From positions 1-39,840 of the forward strand of contig JAAZAA010000174.1 of NCBI GenBank assembly GCA_012514535.1: a DNA stretch of 39,840 nucleotides. Reading direction: 5' to 3'. The stretch comes from Myxococcales bacterium (GTDB lineage: Bacteria; Myxococcota_A; Polyangia; Polyangiales; Polyangiaceae). The position numbers were made by a program, and so were the translations under genes. Below the pieces are notes generated by a model. That model was not told the DNA's origin and did not search any database. It worked only from the letters and a program-made list of their open reading frames with translations. This document shows, one piece after another, positions 11,724-30,392 of the stretch (position 1 is its first letter; the number at the start of each line of letters is the position of its first letter).

Positions 11724-13730
11724 TCAGCCAGACCCGTAGGCGGTGTTCTCGAGCAGGATGACGTTGGTCTTCGACCGGGTCTCGCCGGCGCTCGTCACGT
11801 AGACGGCGGGGCGATCGACGATGGGGCACACCTTCTCACACGCACCGCAGCCGATGCACAGGGAAGGGTCGAGGTGGGGGCGCTGGACCCGCACCGTCTC
11901 GAGGGGCGCGTGGTGTCCCGCCGCCTCGTAGCTGGCCGCGCGCTTCGGGACGTCGACCTCCTCCACCCAGATCGCCTTCGGGGAGGTCGGGCAGAACTCC
12001 TCACAGACGGTGCAGGGGGTCGCCATCGCCCAGGGGAGGCAGCGGCCGCGGTCGAACATCGCGGTGCCGATGCTCACGGGCTTCTGCCCAAGGCCGAGCT
12101 TGGCCTTCTCGTCGATCTTCTGGATGGCCCCCGTGGGGCACACCTGCCCGCACAACACGCACGAGTGTTCACAGTAGCCGATGCGCGGGATGAGGATCGG
12201 CGTCCACAGGCCCTCGAGCCCCGCCTCGAAGTACGCGGGGTGGAGCGCGTTGTTCGGGCACACCTTCATGCACTCGGCGCAGCGGATGCAGCGCTCGAGG
12301 AACTCCCGCTCCTCCACGGAACCCGGCGGGCGGATCACCTTCTCCGAGTACCCCTGGTCGGGCCAGTTGGCGATGCGCGTGGCCGGGACGACGGCGGCGG
12401 CGGCGGCGCCCGTCGCGAGCACGGTGCGCCGCTCCAGGTCCGGCTTCTTCGTCGTGCTGCGGAGCCCGGGCAGGAAGCGGAACTTGATCACGTCCTCCGG
12501 ACAGGCCTGCTCACAATTGAAACACATGTGGCACTCGTCCTGGCGGTGCTTCACGCCGCCCTGAGGGCTGTCCGCCCCCTGACAGTGGACGAGGCACAGG
12601 TTGCAGTCGGTGCACTTGGAGTGGTCCTTCTCCATCCCGAACAGGGAGAAGCGGGACATGAGGCCCAGGAAGGCGCCCAAGGGGCACAGCACCCGGCACC
12701 AGAACCGCGGGACGATGCGGTTCATGAAGAGCACCGCGAGCAACGCGAAGACGATGAGCCAGGTCTGGTGGAAGTAGGCTTGTTCCGGCGTCCAGACGTG
12801 CCCAGCCATCCAATCGAGGGCCTGGTCGCTCGCCCCTTGCAGGGCGGGCACGTTCGTCGCCGCCGCGCCGTCGGCCACACGGATGCCGACGTACTGCAGC
12901 GCCGGGATCAGCCCGAGGCCGATGGAGCGCACCGCGACGCAGATCGGATCGAACATCGCGCCGATGGCGCTCCCCACGAGGGCTGCTCCGAAGGCGCCCG
13001 TCATGACGTAGTATTTCACCCGCTGCCAGCCGCGGGTCTGGTTGGCGCGCACGCGCTTGCCGCCCTTCAGGTAGCGGCTCGGGAAGATCCAACCGAAGAA
13101 GTGGTGCAGGGTACCGAAAGGGCAGATCCAGCCGCAGAACGCCCGCCCCACCAGCACCGTCAGGCCCACGGTGACCAGGGCCCAGACCAGGCCCTGATAG
13201 AGCGTGTGCGTGCTCAGCAGCGTCAGGGCCGCGACGAAGGGATCGGCGAGCAGGAACGCTTCGACGCGCAGGGGCAGGCGCACGGGCTGATCCGCGTCGG
13301 AGACGAAGGTGCCGCGGAAGGCGGTCTGCACGAGCAGGAGCAGGAACAACCCCAGGAAGAAGGTCTGAGAGACGCGGCGCGCCCAGACGAGGGCCGTGAT
13401 GATCCGTCGCGGTGGCAGCCCGGAGCCAGGCCTCCGCTTGCGCTTCTTCGACCAGAAGCGCGCCACCCCGCGTCGCCGAGGGCGCCCCGGCGCGGACGCG
13501 GCGCTCCGACCACTCCCCGAGCACCCGGAACGCGCCGCCACCACTGGCAGATGCACGCGCCGAGGCGGCGCGGGCGACGACCCGCCGAGGTCCAGAGGCG
13601 CCACGCGACCCGGTCGCTCGAGCCAGGGGAGCGGCGACGGCAAGGGGGCGGACGTGACCCCGGGGAGGAACGCTGGCGGCGCCGCTGGCCGGGCCCCGCT
13701 CGGGCTCTTCTCGGGTTCCGCCTGCGCCAT
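11724..13730 (-). CDS. Polyferredoxin membrane protein, NapH-NapG-like fusion
   Basis: 668 residues from ATG 13730, which overlaps the DUF362 stop as TGATG. After a Pro-rich basic N-terminus come about four membrane segments (122-137, 178-194, 240-260, 323-337). NapH-type CxxxCP motifs occur at C199/C203 and C345/C349, and two [4Fe-4S] clusters follow (C373-C383, C400-C410). A Tat-like stretch ERRTVLATGAAAAAVVP (434-450) then precedes a NapG/MauM-like half with four more clusters (C481-C491, C520-C531, C564/C573-C580, C625-C635). In nitrate reduction NapG and NapH are separate subunits moving electrons from quinol to the periplasm; here they appear fused. No nitrate reductase is nearby, so the electron acceptor is unknown. 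The coupled DUF362 protein is the best partner. Confidence 0.85.
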   Translation of the reverse strand: MAQAEPEKSPSGARPAAPPAFLPGVTSAPLPSPLPWLERPGRVAPLDLGGSSPAPPRRVHLPVVAARSGCSGSGRSAASAPGRPRRRGVARFWSKKRKRRPGSGLPPRRIITALVWARRVSQTFFLGLFLLLLVQTAFRGTFVSDADQPVRLPLRVEAFLLADPFVAALTLLSTHTLYQGLVWALVTVGLTVLVGRAFCGWICPFGTLHHFFGWIFPSRYLKGGKRVRANQTRGWQRVKYYVMTGAFGAALVGSAIGAMFDPICVAVRSIGLGLIPALQYVGIRVADGAAATNVPALQGASDQALDWMAGHVWTPEQAYFHQTWLIVFALLAVLFMNRIVPRFWCRVLCPLGAFLGLMSRFSLFGMEKDHSKCTDCNLCLVHCQGADSPQGGVKHRQDECHMCFNCEQACPEDVIKFRFLPGLRSTTKKPDLERRTVLATGAAAAAVVPATRIANWPDQGYSEKVIRPPGSVEEREFLERCIRCAECMKVCPNNALHPAYFEAGLEGLWTPILIPRIGYCEHSCVLCGQVCPTGAIQKIDEKAKLGLGQKPVSIGTAMFDRGRCLPWAMATPCTVCEEFCPTSPKAIWVEEVDVPKRAASYEAAGHHAPLETVRVQRPHLDPSLCIGCGACEKVCPIVDRPAVYVTSAGETRSKTNVILLENTAYGSG

Positions 13731-14734
13731 CACACCTCCACCGGATCGAGGGCGGTGTAGTCCAGAGTGCCGAGGCCACGCTCCTGCCCCAGGAGCAAGT
13801 AGCCGACGCGCTCGGGGCGCTCTCCGATCAGCGTGGCCCCGTAGGCGTCCACGGCGACCTCGTCGAGGCTCGCCACCACCTGGTGCATGTCTCGGGCGTC
13901 GTCGATGTTGCCGCCCTGCGGCCCGTTCCGCACCAGGACGCGGGTGGCGTCCATCACCGTCAAGGTGGGGCGCATGAACGTCGCCAGATCGGCGATGGAG
14001 ACGTCGATGTTCTGGTGGAGCCGATTCCTGCGCCCCCCGAGGATGCCGTACCAGTTCTTCATCGCCGCGGTGAAACGGCACAGGTTGTGGTGCTTGGCGA
14101 CCGGGACGTTGATCACCTTGTCCGCCTCGATCAAGGGCGTGTAGATCGGCCACTCGTCGAGCACGTCGCCCTTCATGCGGAGCTCTCGGAATCGATGGGG
14201 GGCCGGCAAGATGACGTCGGCGCCGAGCTCGTGGGTCGCCCGCCAGATGCCGGAGCGCTGAAAGCACCGGCGCGCCTCGTTGCACGAGGCGTCGGTGACG
14301 ACGACGCGCTTCGCGCCGGCTTCGAAGGCCAACCGCACGACCTCCGCGACGACCCGGGGGTTCGTGTTCGCGGCGTGGACCGGCATCCGATCCCAGCCGA
14401 TGTTCGGCTTCACCGCCACGACGTCACCGCGCCCGACGAAGCGCCCCATCCCGCCCAGGGCCTCGATGGCCCGCCGCGTGAGCACCGCCGGATCCCGTGA
14501 GCTCTTGGCGATGGCCATGCGCGGCCCCGTCCCCCCCGCCCCGCGGAAGTCTCGCACCTGGCGTGCCCCCGTCGGCGCGCGCACGCCGAAGCCGCCGGGA
14601 TCGTAGCGGAGGTGAGCGACGGCCCCCGCGCCGACCAACACGGCGCCCGCAGCACCGAGGCGGTGGAGCACCTCTCGCCGGGACGGGGACGAGGCCACGA
14701 CGGAAGCCGCGAGGCGAGGATCCTTGGAGTCCAT
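13730..14734 (-). CDS. Tat-exported DUF362 protein
   Basis: 334 residues from ATG 14734; longer frames to 15016 run into repetitive intergenic sequence. A Tat signal is seen at the N-terminus: SRREVLHRLGAAGAVLVGAGAVAHL (Arg19-Arg20). The rest matches the DUF362 fold: VVAVKPNIGWDRMP, a Rossmann-like AGAKRVVVTDASCNEA, NVPVAKHHNLCRFTAAMKNWYGIL and LTVMDATRVLVRNGP. DUF362 proteins often carry or partner [4Fe-4S] ferredoxins; this one has none of its own and is translationally coupled to the polyferredoxin, consistent with one exported redox complex. Tat export implies folding with a cofactor in the cytoplasm. Chemical function is unknown. Confidence 0.85.
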   Translation of the reverse strand: MDSKDPRLAASVVASSPSRREVLHRLGAAGAVLVGAGAVAHLRYDPGGFGVRAPTGARQVRDFRGAGGTGPRMAIAKSSRDPAVLTRRAIEALGGMGRFVGRGDVVAVKPNIGWDRMPVHAANTNPRVVAEVVRLAFEAGAKRVVVTDASCNEARRCFQRSGIWRATHELGADVILPAPHRFRELRMKGDVLDEWPIYTPLIEADKVINVPVAKHHNLCRFTAAMKNWYGILGGRRNRLHQNIDVSIADLATFMRPTLTVMDATRVLVRNGPQGGNIDDARDMHQVVASLDEVAVDAYGATLIGERPERVGYLLLGQERGLGTLDYTALDPVEV

Positions 14735-16704: not shown

Positions 16705-18759
16705 TCACCAGCGCGCTCGAGCCGGGAGGGACGCGCGCCGCACCTCATCGAAGGCCGCGCGCTCGTCGGGGCTCGGGGCCGTGGCCATCGGGCGCACCCC
16801 CGGCGTGGGATCGACCTGCACCCCGCGCCGCGCCACGGCGAGCACGACGCGCTCCAGGTGCCCCAAGGCGCCCCCCGTCCCGGTGAAGCACGCCGCGGCG
16901 TCGGGTCCCTCCGCGCGCCGCGGCGCCGCCGACAGCTCGCAGCGCGCCCCCGACGCGAGGGTTCCACGCAGCCCCGCGATCGGACGCGCCACGGGATCGT
17001 CCCAGCGGCTCGGGAGCCCGGGGAGCCCTGCGGCCACCCAGTCGCGGAGTCGCAGCTCGCCGCTCCCCTCCGCTCCCAAGGTGAGCCCCTGCTTGAAGAG
17101 CAGGTTCTCCAGCTCGTCCAAGGTCAGGCCCGCGTCCACGTCGACCAGCTGTGATACCCGATCCACCTGGATCAGGGGGCGATCGTGCGGAGCCGCCTCG
17201 CCTCCCGGGAGGGGCGCGCGCCCCACGAGGGTGGCTGGCTCGCCGCGGAACCCGAGCGTGCCCGGGTTGAGCACTCCCTCCGGATCCCAGGCGCGGCCCA
17301 ACAGATCCCGCACCGCGCCGCTCCCCTGCTCCGCGAGGGTTCCTGCCTTGCTGCGCCCGACCCCATGGTGATGGCTCACGCAGGCGCCCGCGGACACCGC
17401 GGCGGAGAGGGCGTCCGCCCAGACGGAGTCGTAACGGAGCAGGGCGCGCTCCGGAGAGCGTCCGTGGCCCACGAAGGTGAAGTAGATCGCCGCGCCGTCC
17501 GGATAACAGTGGCTCACGTGGGCCATCAGCAGGACGCGGTCACCGATCGCGGCGCGCACCTCCCGGTAGACGTCGGCGAGCTTCGACCAGGGCGCGGCGA
17601 CCTCCATCGTGTCGCTGAAGGCCCCCGCACGGAAGACCTTCGACTGCCGGAAGCTCACGTCGTAGCGGTGCTCGTACCAGCTGCGCACGGGTCCCTCGCC
17701 CAGCGGCTCACCACCGAGCTCCTCACACCAGCGCGTCGCCAGCTGCGCCTGTCCCGCTGGATCGCTGACGTTCTCGAAGGAGAGCAGCAACCGCGAGCGC
17801 GCCCGCCCCTGCCGCTCCAGCAGTGAGACCAGGCGGGCGAGCTGTCCGGGTGCCTTGAGCACGCTCCGCAGGGCCAAGGCCTCGAGCGTGTCCAGGGACG
17901 GCAGCCACGATCCGCCGCGCGGCTCCGGCTCGCCGGGCAAGTCCTCACTGCCCTTCGAGGTGTGCAGCACGGAGTCCACCGCGTCATAGAGCCGCGCGAC
18001 CGCCGGCCGTAGCCCCCCCTGGTAGATCACCCGCAAGGCCTCTTGCCCGTCCTCGAAGGTCGGGAAGCTGAAGGCCACCATCGCGCGCTCCGCTGGCGCC
18101 GGGAACAAACGCAGCCCCACACGGGTGATGATCCCGAGGGTGCCCTCGCTGCCGACGAGCCAGGGCACGAGGTCGACGTCACCGCTCCGCGACCGCATCA
18201 CCAGGTGCCGCCCGGAGCCGAGCACGCACTCGAGCTCCGTCACCATGTCCTCGATCTTCCCGTAACGTCCGGAGCACTGACCGGCGCCGCGCGCCGCCGC
18301 CCAGCCACCGACCGTCGAGCACAGGATGCTCGAGGGAAAATGCCCCGCCGTCCGCCCCAGCTTCTCCAGGCGCTGCTCCAGATCCCACCCGAGGAGCCCC
18401 GCGCCCGCTCGCACCTCCGCGCCGTCCTCGGACACCTCGAAGCTGGTGAGTCGTTTGAGATCCACCACGACCGTGCGCGGATCGGGCCAGAACCCGCCGC
18501 ACACGCCGCTGCCCGCCCCGAGCGGAGCGAGCGCGAAGCCCTCCCTGCGGGCGAGCTCCACCAGCGCCGACACCTCCTCGACGTGCTCGGGCCACACCAC
18601 CGCCAAGGGGCGGCTCCCGGGATCGGGGAGCCCCGCGATCAACCCCCGCGGCCAACAGTCTCGCGCGGAGGCGTCGAGATCGGCGAGCCGCGTGCTCACT
18701 CGAGCCTCCCCGAACACCTCCCCGAGCTTGTCCGTCACGCTCCCGGGCACCTGCTTCAC
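16705..18759 (-). CDS. Alkyl-DHAP synthase-like FAD oxidase with extra C-terminal FAD-domain half
   Basis: 684 residues from GTG 18759; frames reaching 19017 cross the divergent lipoprotein gene. Residues 50-222 form the PCMH FAD-binding domain (PLGAGSGVCGG, GHFPSSILCSTVGGW, YGKIEDMV, GSEGTLGIITRVGLRL). Residues 225-505 form the cap and C-terminal oxidase region with CYPDGAAIYFTF and the triple histidine SHHHGVGRSK (463-465), both hallmarks of alkylglycerone-phosphate synthase. That enzyme swaps the acyl chain of acyl-DHAP for a fatty alcohol in ether-lipid synthesis, and ether lipids are known in myxobacteria. Normal homologues end near residue 510. Here about 170 more residues resemble the second half of a PCMH domain. 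A related FAD oxidase of other substrate range is possible. Confidence 0.82.
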   Translation of the reverse strand: MKQVPGSVTDKLGEVFGEARVSTRLADLDASARDCWPRGLIAGLPDPGSRPLAVVWPEHVEEVSALVELARREGFALAPLGAGSGVCGGFWPDPRTVVVDLKRLTSFEVSEDGAEVRAGAGLLGWDLEQRLEKLGRTAGHFPSSILCSTVGGWAAARGAGQCSGRYGKIEDMVTELECVLGSGRHLVMRSRSGDVDLVPWLVGSEGTLGIITRVGLRLFPAPAERAMVAFSFPTFEDGQEALRVIYQGGLRPAVARLYDAVDSVLHTSKGSEDLPGEPEPRGGSWLPSLDTLEALALRSVLKAPGQLARLVSLLERQGRARSRLLLSFENVSDPAGQAQLATRWCEELGGEPLGEGPVRSWYEHRYDVSFRQSKVFRAGAFSDTMEVAAPWSKLADVYREVRAAIGDRVLLMAHVSHCYPDGAAIYFTFVGHGRSPERALLRYDSVWADALSAAVSAGACVSHHHGVGRSKAGTLAEQGSGAVRDLLGRAWDPEGVLNPGTLGFRGEPATLVGRAPLPGGEAAPHDRPLIQVDRVSQLVDVDAGLTLDELENLLFKQGLTLGAEGSGELRLRDWVAAGLPGLPSRWDDPVARPIAGLRGTLASGARCELSAAPRRAEGPDAAACFTGTGGALGHLERVVLAVARRGVQVDPTPGVRPMATAPSPDERAAFDEVRRASLPARARW

Positions 18760-18783
18760 TCGGTCATTTGTACCCCGGGGCGC

Positions 18784-18803
18784 CCCGAACGTATACGCTC
18801 GGG
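18784..18803. promoter_or_regulatory. Palindrome in divergent promoter region, candidate operator
   Basis: CCCGAACGTATACGCTCGGG reads the same on both strands except at one mirrored pair. It lies in the 46-base gap between the divergent flavoprotein (start 18759) and lipoprotein (start 18806). Palindromes CCCCGGGG (18773-18780) and GGGGCGCCCC (18777-18786) abut it. A dimeric repressor site serving both genes is plausible; a hairpin over the lipoprotein ribosome site is the alternative. Confidence 0.45.
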
Positions 18804-18805
18804 CC

Positions 18806-19255
18806 ATGGGTTGCCCGTCCTCTGCCCCTGTCCAGGCCCGCGCCGCGAGGGTCGCCGACCTTTTCGTGCGACGCACTCGGCGGCTCGCTCCGGTCCCGTG
18901 GCTCGCTTCCCTGCTGTTGCTCGGCGGAGCGGGCTGCGGCGGCGCGGCGAGCGAGCAGCCCCCCCTCGGCGCCCCCGCGAGCGCCGCGGCGGATTCGTCC
19001 GAAGACGAAGAGCTCACGTCGGGCGCGACGCAGCGGGAGCCGGAGAGCCGCTGCAGTGACGGCTCCTGTTTCGAGTGCGGCTCCGGCCTCTGCCCGGCGG
19101 GGTTCTACTGCGACGAAGACGCCGTCGGCGGCGCGGCGTGCAGCTGGCTGCCGAGCTGCCCCCAGGAGCCGAGCTGTGCGTGCGTGACCCGCGCCCTCGG
19201 GGCGGGTTGTCGCTGCGAGGAACGCGCCGGTGGCCTCCACGTGAGCTGTTCGTGA
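18806..19255 (+). CDS. Small cysteine-rich lipoprotein
   Basis: 149 residues from ATG 18806. After a basic lead (RAARVADLFVRRTRRLAP) comes a hydrophobic segment and the lipobox-like GGAGC, giving Cys46 as the likely anchor. The lead is longer than usual, so an internal start is possible. An acidic Ser/Ala linker (ADSSEDEELTSG) joins a C-terminal domain of about 70 residues with 14 cysteines (CSDGSCFECGSGLCPAGFYCDE ... CPQEPSCACVTRALGAGCRCEER), a compact disulfide-rich fold like the other lipoprotein at 1414. It is divergent from the AGPS-like gene across a palindrome and may be co-regulated with it. Function unknown; outer surface expected. Confidence 0.75.
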   Translation: MGCPSSAPVQARAARVADLFVRRTRRLAPVPWLASLLLLGGAGCGGAASEQPPLGAPASAAADSSEDEELTSGATQREPESRCSDGSCFECGSGLCPAGFYCDEDAVGGAACSWLPSCPQEPSCACVTRALGAGCRCEERAGGLHVSCS

Positions 19256-27580: not shown

Positions 27581-29848
27581 TCACTCCGCGGCGCTCTGAC
27601 TCGGGACGGTGAGCTCGCACGCCTGCGCCAGGAGCTCGACGACGTCGAGGTTCTTCACCACGTCTTCCTTGGACTCCGCCTTCAGGCCGTCCGTCAACAT
27701 CGTCATGCAGAAGGGGCACGCGCTGGCGATCGTCTCTGCGCCGGTCTCCAGCAGCTGCTTGGTCCGCTTCACGTTCACGCGGTCGTTGTTCTGCTCCTCC
27801 ATGAACATCTGCGCGCCGCCAGCGCCGCAGCACAAACCCTTGCTGCGGTTCCAGCCGTCGACCTCGACGAGCTCCACCCCCTGGATCTGCCGGAGGATCT
27901 CGCGCGGCGAGTCGTAGATGCCGTTGTAACGACCGAGGTAACACGAGTCGTGGTAGGCGACGCGCGCCTTCACGGGCCGCGTCGGCTCGAGCTTCTTCTC
28001 CGCGACCAACCCCAACAAGAAATCCGTGTGGTTGATCACCTCGAGCTCGATCCCGAAGTCCGTGTACTCGTTCTTCAGCGTGTTGAAGCAGTGGGGGCAG
28101 GTCGTGACGATGCGCTTCACGCCCCCCTGCTCCCGGTAGCCCGAGAGCGTGGCCACGTTCGTCTCCGCGAGCATCGAGAAGAGGTACTCGTTGCCGGCGC
28201 GACGCGCCGGATCTCCGGTGCACGTCTCTTCCTCGCCGAGGATGGCGTAGTCGACCCCCGCGGCGGTCAGGAGCTGCGCCGTGGCTCGGGCGATCTTCTT
28301 GGCGCGGTCGTCGTAGCTGGCGGCGCACCCCACCCAGAACAACACCTCCGCGGTGGGATGCTCGGCGGCCATCCGCACCCCGAGCCCCTCGGCCCAGTTG
28401 GCCCGATCCATACGGGAGAGGTTCCAGGGGTTGCCGTTCACCTCCATCCCCTCGAAGGGCTTGTTCAGCTCCGCGGGGAACTCGCCCCGGATCACCACCA
28501 GGTTGCGCCGCATCTGCACGATCTTGTCGACGTAGGTGATGTTCACCGGGCACTGCTCTTCGCAGGCGCGGCAGGTGGTGCAGGCCCACAGGACGTCCGG
28601 ATCGATGATGTCCGGCACCAGGTCGCGCTGCGCTGCGACGCCTCCCCCGCCGGGCTTCACCTCGTCGGGTTGCTGCGAGCCGTCAGCGGCCGCCGCCGTC
28701 AGCTCCGCGGCCTGGGCCTCGGCGGACTCCCCCGGTGCCCCGACGTCCGTCGCCTTCGCCACCTTCTCCTGCAGGCTGTAGAGGTGATCGCGCAGATCGA
28801 GGGTGTAGTGCTTCGGGCTCAACTTCTTGCCGGTGAGGGTCGCGGGGCAGTTGTCGCTGCAGCGCCCGCACTCGGTGCAGGTGTAGAAGTCGAGCATGTC
28901 CTTCCAGGTGAAATGCCCGATGCGCGCGTAGCCGATGCGCGCGGCCCCCATGTCCTCGCTCTCGCTCGCCTTCTCCACGAGGCCCATGAGCTCCTCCGTG
29001 TCCTTGGCGAGGGGACGCAGCCGCCCGGGGCGCTGGAGGTCGGAGAGGAAGATGTTCGGCAGCGCCGTGATGATGTGGAAGTGCTTCGAGTAGGGGAGGA
29101 TGTTCAGGAAGACGAGCACGAGGATCGCGTGCGTCCAGAAACCGAGCTGCCCCAGCCCGATCAGCGTGTCGAGCCTCGCGCCCGCCAGCAACGACGCGAA
29201 CACCCCGCTCGCGGGCTCCGGATAGAGATGCCAGGTCAGGGGGCCCTCGGCCGCGCCGAGGGGGGCGATCATGGCGGCCGCGGTGTCGCAGCTCGACGAC
29301 GCGGCTCCGGCGGCGCACAGCTCCGCGTAACGGTGGTTCAGTACCGTGATGGCGCCGTCGTAGATGAGATCGGCGATCATCATGGTGGCGATGATGCCGA
29401 GGATGAGCAGCCCCTCGAGCCCCAAGGCCATCCGCCGCTGCGGGCGGATCACCCGGTAGTAGACGAAGATGCTCGTACCGATGAGCACGAGGGTGGCGAA
29501 GACGTCCTTGAGGAACGCGTAGAAGCCCCCCAAGCCGCCGTCCGGCGCCAGGATCCACAGGTTGAACGACGGATCGAACCCGCGCCCCCAGAGCACCAGG
29601 GTGCGCAGCAGCAGCACGACGAACCCCAGGAAGATCAGCTGGTGCCCGATGCCCGCCCAGAAGTAGTACCGCATCTTCTTCTGGTAGAGCCCGAACGTCC
29701 AAAGCGTGGCCAGCCGCTCCGGGATGCGATCCACCCGCGACTCCCACGTCGGCGCGCCCAGCCGGAGCAACGCCCAACGCCGGCGCGCGCTCCACACGAA
29801 CAAACCAACGAGGCCCACCAGGACGCCCGCCATCACCCACGGATTCAT
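27581..29848 (-). CDS. EtfD-like membrane Fe-S oxidoreductase (HdrD/GlpC-type CCG domains)
   Basis: 755 residues from ATG 29848. About six membrane helices in residues 1-260 (NarI/HdrE-like) precede two [4Fe-4S] clusters, C324-C334 (CTECGRCSDNCP) and C423-C433 (CTTCRACEEQCP). Two CCG domains follow: C508, C543, C584/C587 (TTCPHC), then C636, C673-C674 (GLCCGAGG) and C711/C714. This is the layout of EtfD, which passes electrons from electron-transfer flavoprotein to menaquinone during fatty-acid or amino-acid oxidation. No etfAB is in the window. The roughly 60-residue Ala/Gly/Asp linker between the two ferredoxin clusters (about 362-418) is longer than expected. It is last in a four-gene minus-strand cluster, 34 bases after the DnaJ-like gene. 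Confidence 0.9.
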   Translation of the reverse strand: MNPWVMAGVLVGLVGLFVWSARRRWALLRLGAPTWESRVDRIPERLATLWTFGLYQKKMRYYFWAGIGHQLIFLGFVVLLLRTLVLWGRGFDPSFNLWILAPDGGLGGFYAFLKDVFATLVLIGTSIFVYYRVIRPQRRMALGLEGLLILGIIATMMIADLIYDGAITVLNHRYAELCAAGAASSSCDTAAAMIAPLGAAEGPLTWHLYPEPASGVFASLLAGARLDTLIGLGQLGFWTHAILVLVFLNILPYSKHFHIITALPNIFLSDLQRPGRLRPLAKDTEELMGLVEKASESEDMGAARIGYARIGHFTWKDMLDFYTCTECGRCSDNCPATLTGKKLSPKHYTLDLRDHLYSLQEKVAKATDVGAPGESAEAQAAELTAAAADGSQQPDEVKPGGGGVAAQRDLVPDIIDPDVLWACTTCRACEEQCPVNITYVDKIVQMRRNLVVIRGEFPAELNKPFEGMEVNGNPWNLSRMDRANWAEGLGVRMAAEHPTAEVLFWVGCAASYDDRAKKIARATAQLLTAAGVDYAILGEEETCTGDPARRAGNEYLFSMLAETNVATLSGYREQGGVKRIVTTCPHCFNTLKNEYTDFGIELEVINHTDFLLGLVAEKKLEPTRPVKARVAYHDSCYLGRYNGIYDSPREILRQIQGVELVEVDGWNRSKGLCCGAGGAQMFMEEQNNDRVNVKRTKQLLETGAETIASACPFCMTMLTDGLKAESKEDVVKNLDVVELLAQACELTVPSQSAAE

Positions 29849-29882
29849 CGTTTCGTGTTCCTTGACGAAGACCGGCTCGGGG

Positions 29883-30392
29883 TCACAGCCATCCCGCGAG
29901 CCAGAGCAGCACTACGAACAACACGGTGAGGCCAACGGCCACGAGCACGCTGCGCCGAATCAGCTCGCGCCGCTCCTCCGGCGAGATGGTCAACGGCCGC
30001 TCCTGCGCGAGCGATCGGACCACCCCCGCGCTGGGAGCGTCCGCGACCGAGACACGCAGCAAGAGGAGCCCACGCCCGTAGGGTCGATCCGGAGGCGGCA
30101 AGCCCCCTGCGTCGGGGATGCGCAGCACGACGTCCCCCACCTCGCTGACGGGCAGGGTCACCGACACGACCTCCGGGGCTTCGTCCCGCTCGCGCAGGGT
30201 CAGCGCGCCGGAACGCTGACACGCGTCGCACCCTCCCCCCTCGCAGCGCGCGCAGCTCAGGTGGCGGGGGAGCTCGACGTCGATCGCCGCCCCCTCGGAG
30301 AGCCACCCGGCCGGCACGGAGATCCGGTGCAGCACGTCCGGGCCACGCTCGTCGTCGACCGCCTTCGTGACCTTACCGAGTACCTGTCCCAC
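29883..30392 (-). CDS. Tail-anchored protein with DnaJ C-terminal-like domain and zinc knuckle
   Basis: 169 residues, start 30392, overlapping the upstream lipoprotein gene by 20 bases. Residues 20-45 (LHRISVPAGWLSEGAAIDVELP) and 74-117 (VVSVTLPVSEVGDVVLRIPDAGGLPPPDRPYGRGLLLLRVSV, read in parts) follow the strand pattern and the IPxxG turn of DnaJ C-terminal substrate-binding domains. A compact CxxC-x4-CxxC (C47, C50, C55, C58) stands where DnaJ has its zinc region, reduced to one knuckle. There is no J domain. A single membrane helix at about 148-167 ends the protein, so it is tail-anchored with the domain in the cytoplasm. It may dock unfolded or Fe-S client proteins at the membrane; that is inference. 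Confidence 0.7.
   Translation of the reverse strand: MGQVLGKVTKAVDDERGPDVLHRISVPAGWLSEGAAIDVELPRHLSCARCEGGGCDACQRSGALTLRERDEAPEVVSVTLPVSEVGDVVLRIPDAGGLPPPDRPYGRGLLLLRVSVADAPSAGVVRSLAQERPLTISPEERRELIRRSVLVAVGLTVLFVVLLWLAGWL

Follow-up and report, generated by a model that had tools for sequence, protein, structure and literature searches.

A DUF362 protein with a predicted LarA-like fold travels with a putative dual Sec-Tat polyferredoxin: a possible quinone-linked use of the nickel-pincer nucleotide

Introduction

Polytopic polyferredoxins have been described as fusions of NapH and NapG (Tooke et al., eLife 2017; PMC5449189). Four of their transmembrane segments are inserted by Sec and a fifth, poorly hydrophobic, by Tat; in the protein of the delta proteobacterium MLMS-1, reporters fused after segment 5 were exported, and low hydrophobicity is an experimentally established trait of this Tat-dependent segment (PMC5449189). 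In the lactate racemase LarA, K184, R75 and H200 bind the nickel-pincer nucleotide (NPN), with H108 and H174 as catalytic residues (PMC11770544). Some LarA homologues have only one of these two histidines, retaining H108 and losing the other (PMC12611868). Pfam clan CL0471 holds DUF362 (PF04015) together with DUF2088/LarA, and the same work used DUF362 simply as an outgroup for LarA (PMC11770544). In the literature searched we found no function assigned to DUF362 (COG2006, PF04015), no paper linking it to NPN or LarC, and no text joining it with NapH. The NPN biosynthesis proteins LarB, LarC and LarE occur in many genomes that have no LarA, where it may be DUF362 proteins that use the cofactor. 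Here we analyse a stretch of 39,840 nucleotides from a Polyangiaceae bacterium of the Myxococcota (contig JAAZAA010000174.1; hereafter the window), in which a DUF362 gene adjoins a gene for a NapH-NapG fusion.

The gene pair and its spread

On the minus strand of the window, the TGA stop of the DUF362 gene and the ATG start of the fusion gene overlap by one base in the string TGATG (Table 1). An initial annotation, made from the letters alone, had reported this coupling between a Tat-signal DUF362 protein and a NapH-NapG fusion, and both genes are indeed found where it placed them. It had also proposed looking for the pair elsewhere and listing its neighbours. A genome scan for relatives of the fusion yielded 148, of which 80 were kept, in Myxococcota and related deltaproteobacterial bins. 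Of the 69 Myxococcota loci long enough to tell, 68 have a DUF362 gene immediately upstream. With so many relatives and so constant an adjacency, the two genes are a real unit, beyond chance. The same arrangement recurs in nine distant Myxococcota loci retrieved by a phylum-wide search and on a replicon of Parabacteroides distasonis (Bacteroidota), and the fusion is present in each of the 16 genomes sampled from the family to which the window belongs. The other neighbours vary by clade over about 80 loci, being prfA/rpmE-like genes, hemE-hemH-hemG-like genes or kinases, and no third enzyme common to all lineages was seen among the loci compared.

Several neighbourhoods deserve mention in their own right. 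In 13 distinct loci of more distant lineages the pair is immediately preceded by a DUF6599 gene, so that the ancestral module may have been made of three genes. At two of these loci a gene for an aldo/keto reductase with a Tat signal lies 3' of the polyferredoxin gene (L133:9468-10733 and L134:7069-8292). In one clade, genes resembling hemE, hemH and hemG follow the pair, in some cases after a gap of 4-31 bases. Haem biosynthesis was considered as the role of the pair and set aside: such genes accompany it in only 8-9 of 80 loci, all of one clade, and prfA/rpmE-like genes are found elsewhere. Two other minus-strand genes of the window are worth recording: one (27584-29911) encodes a large Fe-S oxidoreductase of the membrane that has two CCG domains and resembles heterodisulfide reductase, the other (16705-19017) a glycolate-oxidase-like FAD enzyme.

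Table 1. Features of the gene pair (window coordinates) and related loci in other genomes
Feature	Position	Strand	Remarks
DUF362 gene	13730-14734	-	334 aa, first of pair
NapH-NapG fusion polyferredoxin gene	11724-13730	-	668 aa; ATG at 13730, stop at 11724
Tat signal of DUF362 protein (SRREVL, hydrophobic helix 19-43)	14606..14734	-	helix in model
R116, putative counterpart of LarA R75 (NPN phosphate)	14387..14389	-	invariant in 68 close rows; near R75 (hhalign)
H216, putative counterpart of catalytic LarA H174	14087..14089	-	in register; invariant in 68 rows
K226, putative counterpart of LarA K184 (covalent NPN lysine)	14057..14059	-	in register; invariant in 68 rows
H240, putative counterpart of LarA H200 (nickel ligand)	14015..14017	-	invariant in 68 rows; within one column (hhalign)
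Conserved N-terminal motif of fusion, LPSPLPWLERPGRVAPLD	13590..13643	-	common to close relatives
Internal twin-arginine and weakly hydrophobic fifth TM segment, ERRTVLATGAAAAAVVPATRIA	12369..12434	-	
NapG-like domain, four [4Fe-4S] motifs, predicted periplasmic	11826..12290	-	16 invariant Cys; NapG model 90 bits
DUF6599-DUF362-polyferredoxin loci	L066-L069, L071, L072, L078, L080, L127, L130, L132, L133, L134		
Loci with hem-like genes downstream of the pair	L020, L028, L030, L033, L042, L045, L058, L082, L084		
larB-larC-larE cluster of genome G187	L150:9359-13979 (G187 C33)	one strand	cyclase-like gene is squalene-hopene-cyclase-like

The fusion polyferredoxin

The N-terminal part of the fusion is NapH-like, with four hydrophobic regions, a C-x3-CP motif present twice (C199/C203 and C345/C349) and two cluster motifs (C373-C383 and C400-C410); the NapG-like part adds four more (C481-491, C520-531, C564-580 and C625-635). 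The 24 cysteines of these six [4Fe-4S] motifs, and likewise those of both C-x3-CP motifs, are invariant in 74 aligned relatives. Their spacing gives the two and four clusters originally read from the sequence. Between the two sets of clusters lies ERRTVLATGAAAAAVVPATRI (residues 433-453), and the stretch ERRTVLATGAAAAAVV has a conserved twin-arginine ahead of a weakly hydrophobic segment and an invariant arginine after it. Of the paired arginines, the second never varies in the 74 relatives and the first is kept in at least 90% of them; R452, after the fifth segment, is likewise invariant. That segment is short, and its Kyte-Doolittle peak is 1.41, whereas helices 1, 2 and 4 reach 1.8-2.0. Every sequence trait that serves as a criterion for dual Sec-Tat polyferredoxins in PMC5449189 is found in the window's protein. 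By its sequence the fusion is thus of this known kind, and export of its C-terminal domain is predicted. The initial annotation was right to see in the internal Tat-like stretch a transmembrane segment; the idea is not new, such a segment having been demonstrated in the MLMS-1 protein.

The first 100 residues are of low complexity, but they contain a motif, LPxPIPWLxxxGxVxxLD, that is common to relatives, and the reading frame is therefore real. The best family models found for the fusion are NapG (90 bits) and NapH (78 bits), scores far below the respective equivalog cut-offs of 269 and 234 bits, and the NapH domain family takes in NosR and MauN. A sequence search for solved structures returned no relative of the DUF362 protein or of the fusion; the structure model of the latter was poor (pLDDT 50) and was left out of structural inference.

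No nitrate reductase was found among the window genes tested, as had been noted at the outset, and a comparison of about 80 loci showed no reductase gene consistently linked to the pair; absences in the window's own genome are those given by family searches. On another contig of that genome (C433, L096), a NosR-like gene stands beside a NosD-like gene and the C-terminal part of a nitrous oxide reductase-like protein. Nitrate or nitrous oxide respiration was tried as the role of the pair and rejected, there being no linked reductase and NosR having its own locus on a separate contig.

The DUF362 protein

The partner matches PF04015 only, at 170 bits for a gathering cut-off of 24, and R19 and R20 of its Tat signal are at least 90% conserved in 68 aligned rows. 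Its AF2 model (pLDDT 85) retrieves LarA-family structures with Foldseek (E 1e-6) and again with VIA, where LarA-family chains score Z 14.5-17.5 (malate and lactate racemases 17, single-histidine LarA homologues 15.5, a structural-genomics entry 14.5) and the next unrelated chains 5.5. Compared with the LarA N-domain, the model aligns over 207 residues (Z 17.5, rmsd 3.0), and the structural alignment with LarA stops at residue 307 of 334. Judging by this model, the protein almost certainly has the LarA N-domain fold, in agreement with the Pfam placement of its family alongside DUF2088 (PMC11770544). It has neither a LarA C-domain nor a Lar_N Pfam match.

The residue register comes from an hhalign profile alignment of DUF362 with Myxococcota LarA homologues. 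This alignment is weak (E 0.002-0.008, probability at most 13%), and it fits the shift of about 42 residues given by the structural comparison. It gives the probable counterparts entered in Table 1; H216 and K226 are 10 residues apart, exactly as are H174 and K184 in LarA. None of H216, K226 and the adjacent N227 varies among 31 diverse DUF362 proteins; the equivalent of R116 is not conserved in some distant ones. LarA H108 is without counterpart, the region S150-C151-N152 standing in its place.

Two observations on other contigs touch on this family. Genome G178 has a single open frame (C62:80803-81621) that is matched by DUF362 (1e-54) as well as by Lar_N (3e-5), so that the common descent of the two shows directly in the sequence. 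In the window's own genome (C163, L094), a Tat-signal DUF362 paralogue adjoins a tatA-like gene.

DUF362 and the nickel-pincer nucleotide across genomes

A survey of 188 Myxococcota genomes detected LarC in 116 of the 121 that carry DUF362 and in 20 of the 67 that do not (Fisher 1e-22, a significance inflated by kinship). Removing the genomes with a Lar_N match leaves 108, 59 of them with LarC, and the association persists: 44/46 with DUF362 against 15/62 without it (6.5e-15, where again the genomes are related and the value overstates their independence). LarA itself does no better as a predictor, LarC accompanying it in 77 of 80 genomes. LarC is present in every one of the 28 fusion-bearing Myxococcota genomes, seven of which lack a Lar_N match, and within the window's order the presence or absence of DUF362 and LarC agrees in 31 of 32 genomes. 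A case in point is G187, which alone among the sampled genomes of its family has DUF362 or LarC. It has both: larB, larC and larE are grouped on one strand with a gene for a Tat-signal DUF362 protein and a cyclase-like gene, and the search for Lar_N gave no match in this genome. Far from there, in Streptomyces sp. NBC_01450 (NZ_CP109481.1), a LarA-less cluster has a DUF362 gene some 4 kb away from larE-larB-larC. Genome context thus links DUF362 to NPN. The DUF362 proteins of these two clusters are paralogues that are not beside a polyferredoxin. The Streptomyces region (L155:4278-12377) also has genes for a putative cyclase (arylformamidase-like), a DAHP-synthase-like protein and a chorismate-using-enzyme-like protein, and it looks like a biosynthetic gene cluster using the nickel-pincer cofactor.

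To be sure, the link has exceptions. Family searches detected no LarC in the DUF362-bearing control genome Bacteroides ihuae, which speaks against universality, and the 188-genome survey found none in G010 and G039, two DUF362-bearing genomes of one genus. The window's own genome has LarC and LarE, together with four DUF362 genes and a LarA homologue.

A possible mechanism and its alternatives

The initial annotation had proposed an electron path from quinol across the membrane to a periplasmic acceptor that it left unnamed. The path fits what we see; its direction, borrowed from NapGH, is an assumption, and the reverse is equally likely. As for the acceptor, the best candidate for electron partner of the fusion is the DUF362 protein itself, since no other gene stays beside that of the fusion from lineage to lineage as the neighbours change, and since the protein combines the fold with the ligand residues of an NPN enzyme. 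The two proteins would then form one membrane redox unit. The four Sec-inserted helices of the fusion would carry the quinone-reactive NapH-like part, with its two clusters in the cytoplasm; the weakly hydrophobic fifth helix would be passed to Tat, so that the four-cluster NapG-like domain ends in the periplasm, where the Tat-exported DUF362 protein would be its redox partner. With R116, K226 and H240 where LarA holds NPN, and H216 at the site of a LarA catalytic histidine, the protein may carry NPN, or a molecule closely related to it, incorporated as it folds ahead of export. Without the C-domain, we infer, the side that holds the cofactor would be free for a partner protein to dock. A hydride taken from the substrate (or given to it) would not be returned as in racemases, and electrons would flow through the clusters to the quinone (or from it). 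Taken in full, the reading of the DUF362 protein as a periplasmic redox enzyme of NPN type, with the polyferredoxin as its link to quinones, is a serious possibility that stops somewhat short of probable. The wider claim, that DUF362 is a second large class of NPN enzymes whose periplasmic member performs net quinone-linked redox chemistry through the polyferredoxin, is put forward a little more tentatively still. To our knowledge, net redox chemistry is not a reaction class known for NPN.

A LarA fold may also house another cofactor, a bound metal or nothing at all. The DUF362 protein of the pair would still be the redox partner of the polyferredoxin, and the LarC link would come from DUF362 paralogues elsewhere in these genomes. 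B. ihuae, G010 and G039, with DUF362 and no LarC detected, lean this way, as do Parabacteroides, which keeps the pair, and the window's genome, whose four DUF362 genes and LarA homologue could account for its LarC and LarE. However, all the arginine, histidine and lysine counterparts are kept in exactly the paired DUF362 subfamily, and LarC is missing from none of the fusion-bearing Myxococcota genomes sampled, even where Lar_N has no match; we consider this account rather unlikely, if deserving of real weight. The view that NPN is present and used in quinone-linked turnover must also be set against one in which the polyferredoxin helps to assemble or reductively reactivate either the cofactor of DUF362 or a different exported enzyme. 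Such a role has been suggested for NosR-type and MauMN-type proteins; the inclusion of NosR and MauN in the NapH domain family speaks for it, and the gene order, DUF362 first and fusion second, is that expected of an accessory. Yet no third enzyme accompanies the two proteins in all the lineages compared, and six clusters make a long path for a maturation step, making such a role improbable.

Less probable again is the reading first given to the locus, of a NapGH-like quinol dehydrogenase feeding a distant periplasmic reductase, with DUF362 as an accessory. NapG and NapH are the best family models, and the genome has a NosR gene next to a nitrous oxide reductase-like gene; against this, those models score well under their equivalog cut-offs, NosR has a locus to itself, and no conserved reductase gene was seen beside the pair in about 80 loci. 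Finally, the short and weakly hydrophobic segment 5 might suggest that the NapG-like half stays cytoplasmic and that the internal twin-arginine is a chance remnant. This is hardly credible, with the twin-arginine and the arginine that follows conserved in 74 relatives and low hydrophobicity typical of a Tat-dependent segment 5 (PMC5449189).

The pair hints that NPN, the cofactor of a nickel-using lactate racemase, may also serve real redox chemistry. If a quinone-linked NPN enzyme is truly at work here, the hidden hydride chemistry of the cofactor is also used for net oxidation or reduction, and a very common domain of unknown function would receive its first function.

Comparison with known systems

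Like the MLMS-1 polyferredoxin, the window's protein is a NapH-NapG fusion with a twin-arginine before segment 5, positive charge after it and four periplasmic cluster motifs (a location predicted for the window fusion); it differs by its low-complexity N-terminal extension and by the coupled DUF362 gene, PMC5449189 making no mention of DUF362. The new element is this partner, rather than the type of fusion. With the NapGH quinol dehydrogenase the fusion shares domain make-up and cluster number, but it is one polypeptide, has no nap operon in the window and falls far under the equivalog cut-offs. The DUF362 protein is a member of PF04015 well above the family cut-off. It resembles the LarA/LarAH superfamily in its predicted N-domain fold and in the probable counterparts of R75, H174, K184 and H200. 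It departs from LarA in lacking the C-domain and H108, and in being, by prediction, exported by Tat and joined to an electron-transfer protein. Unlike the redox role proposed here for DUF362, the LarA enzymes with established activity are redox-neutral isomerases.
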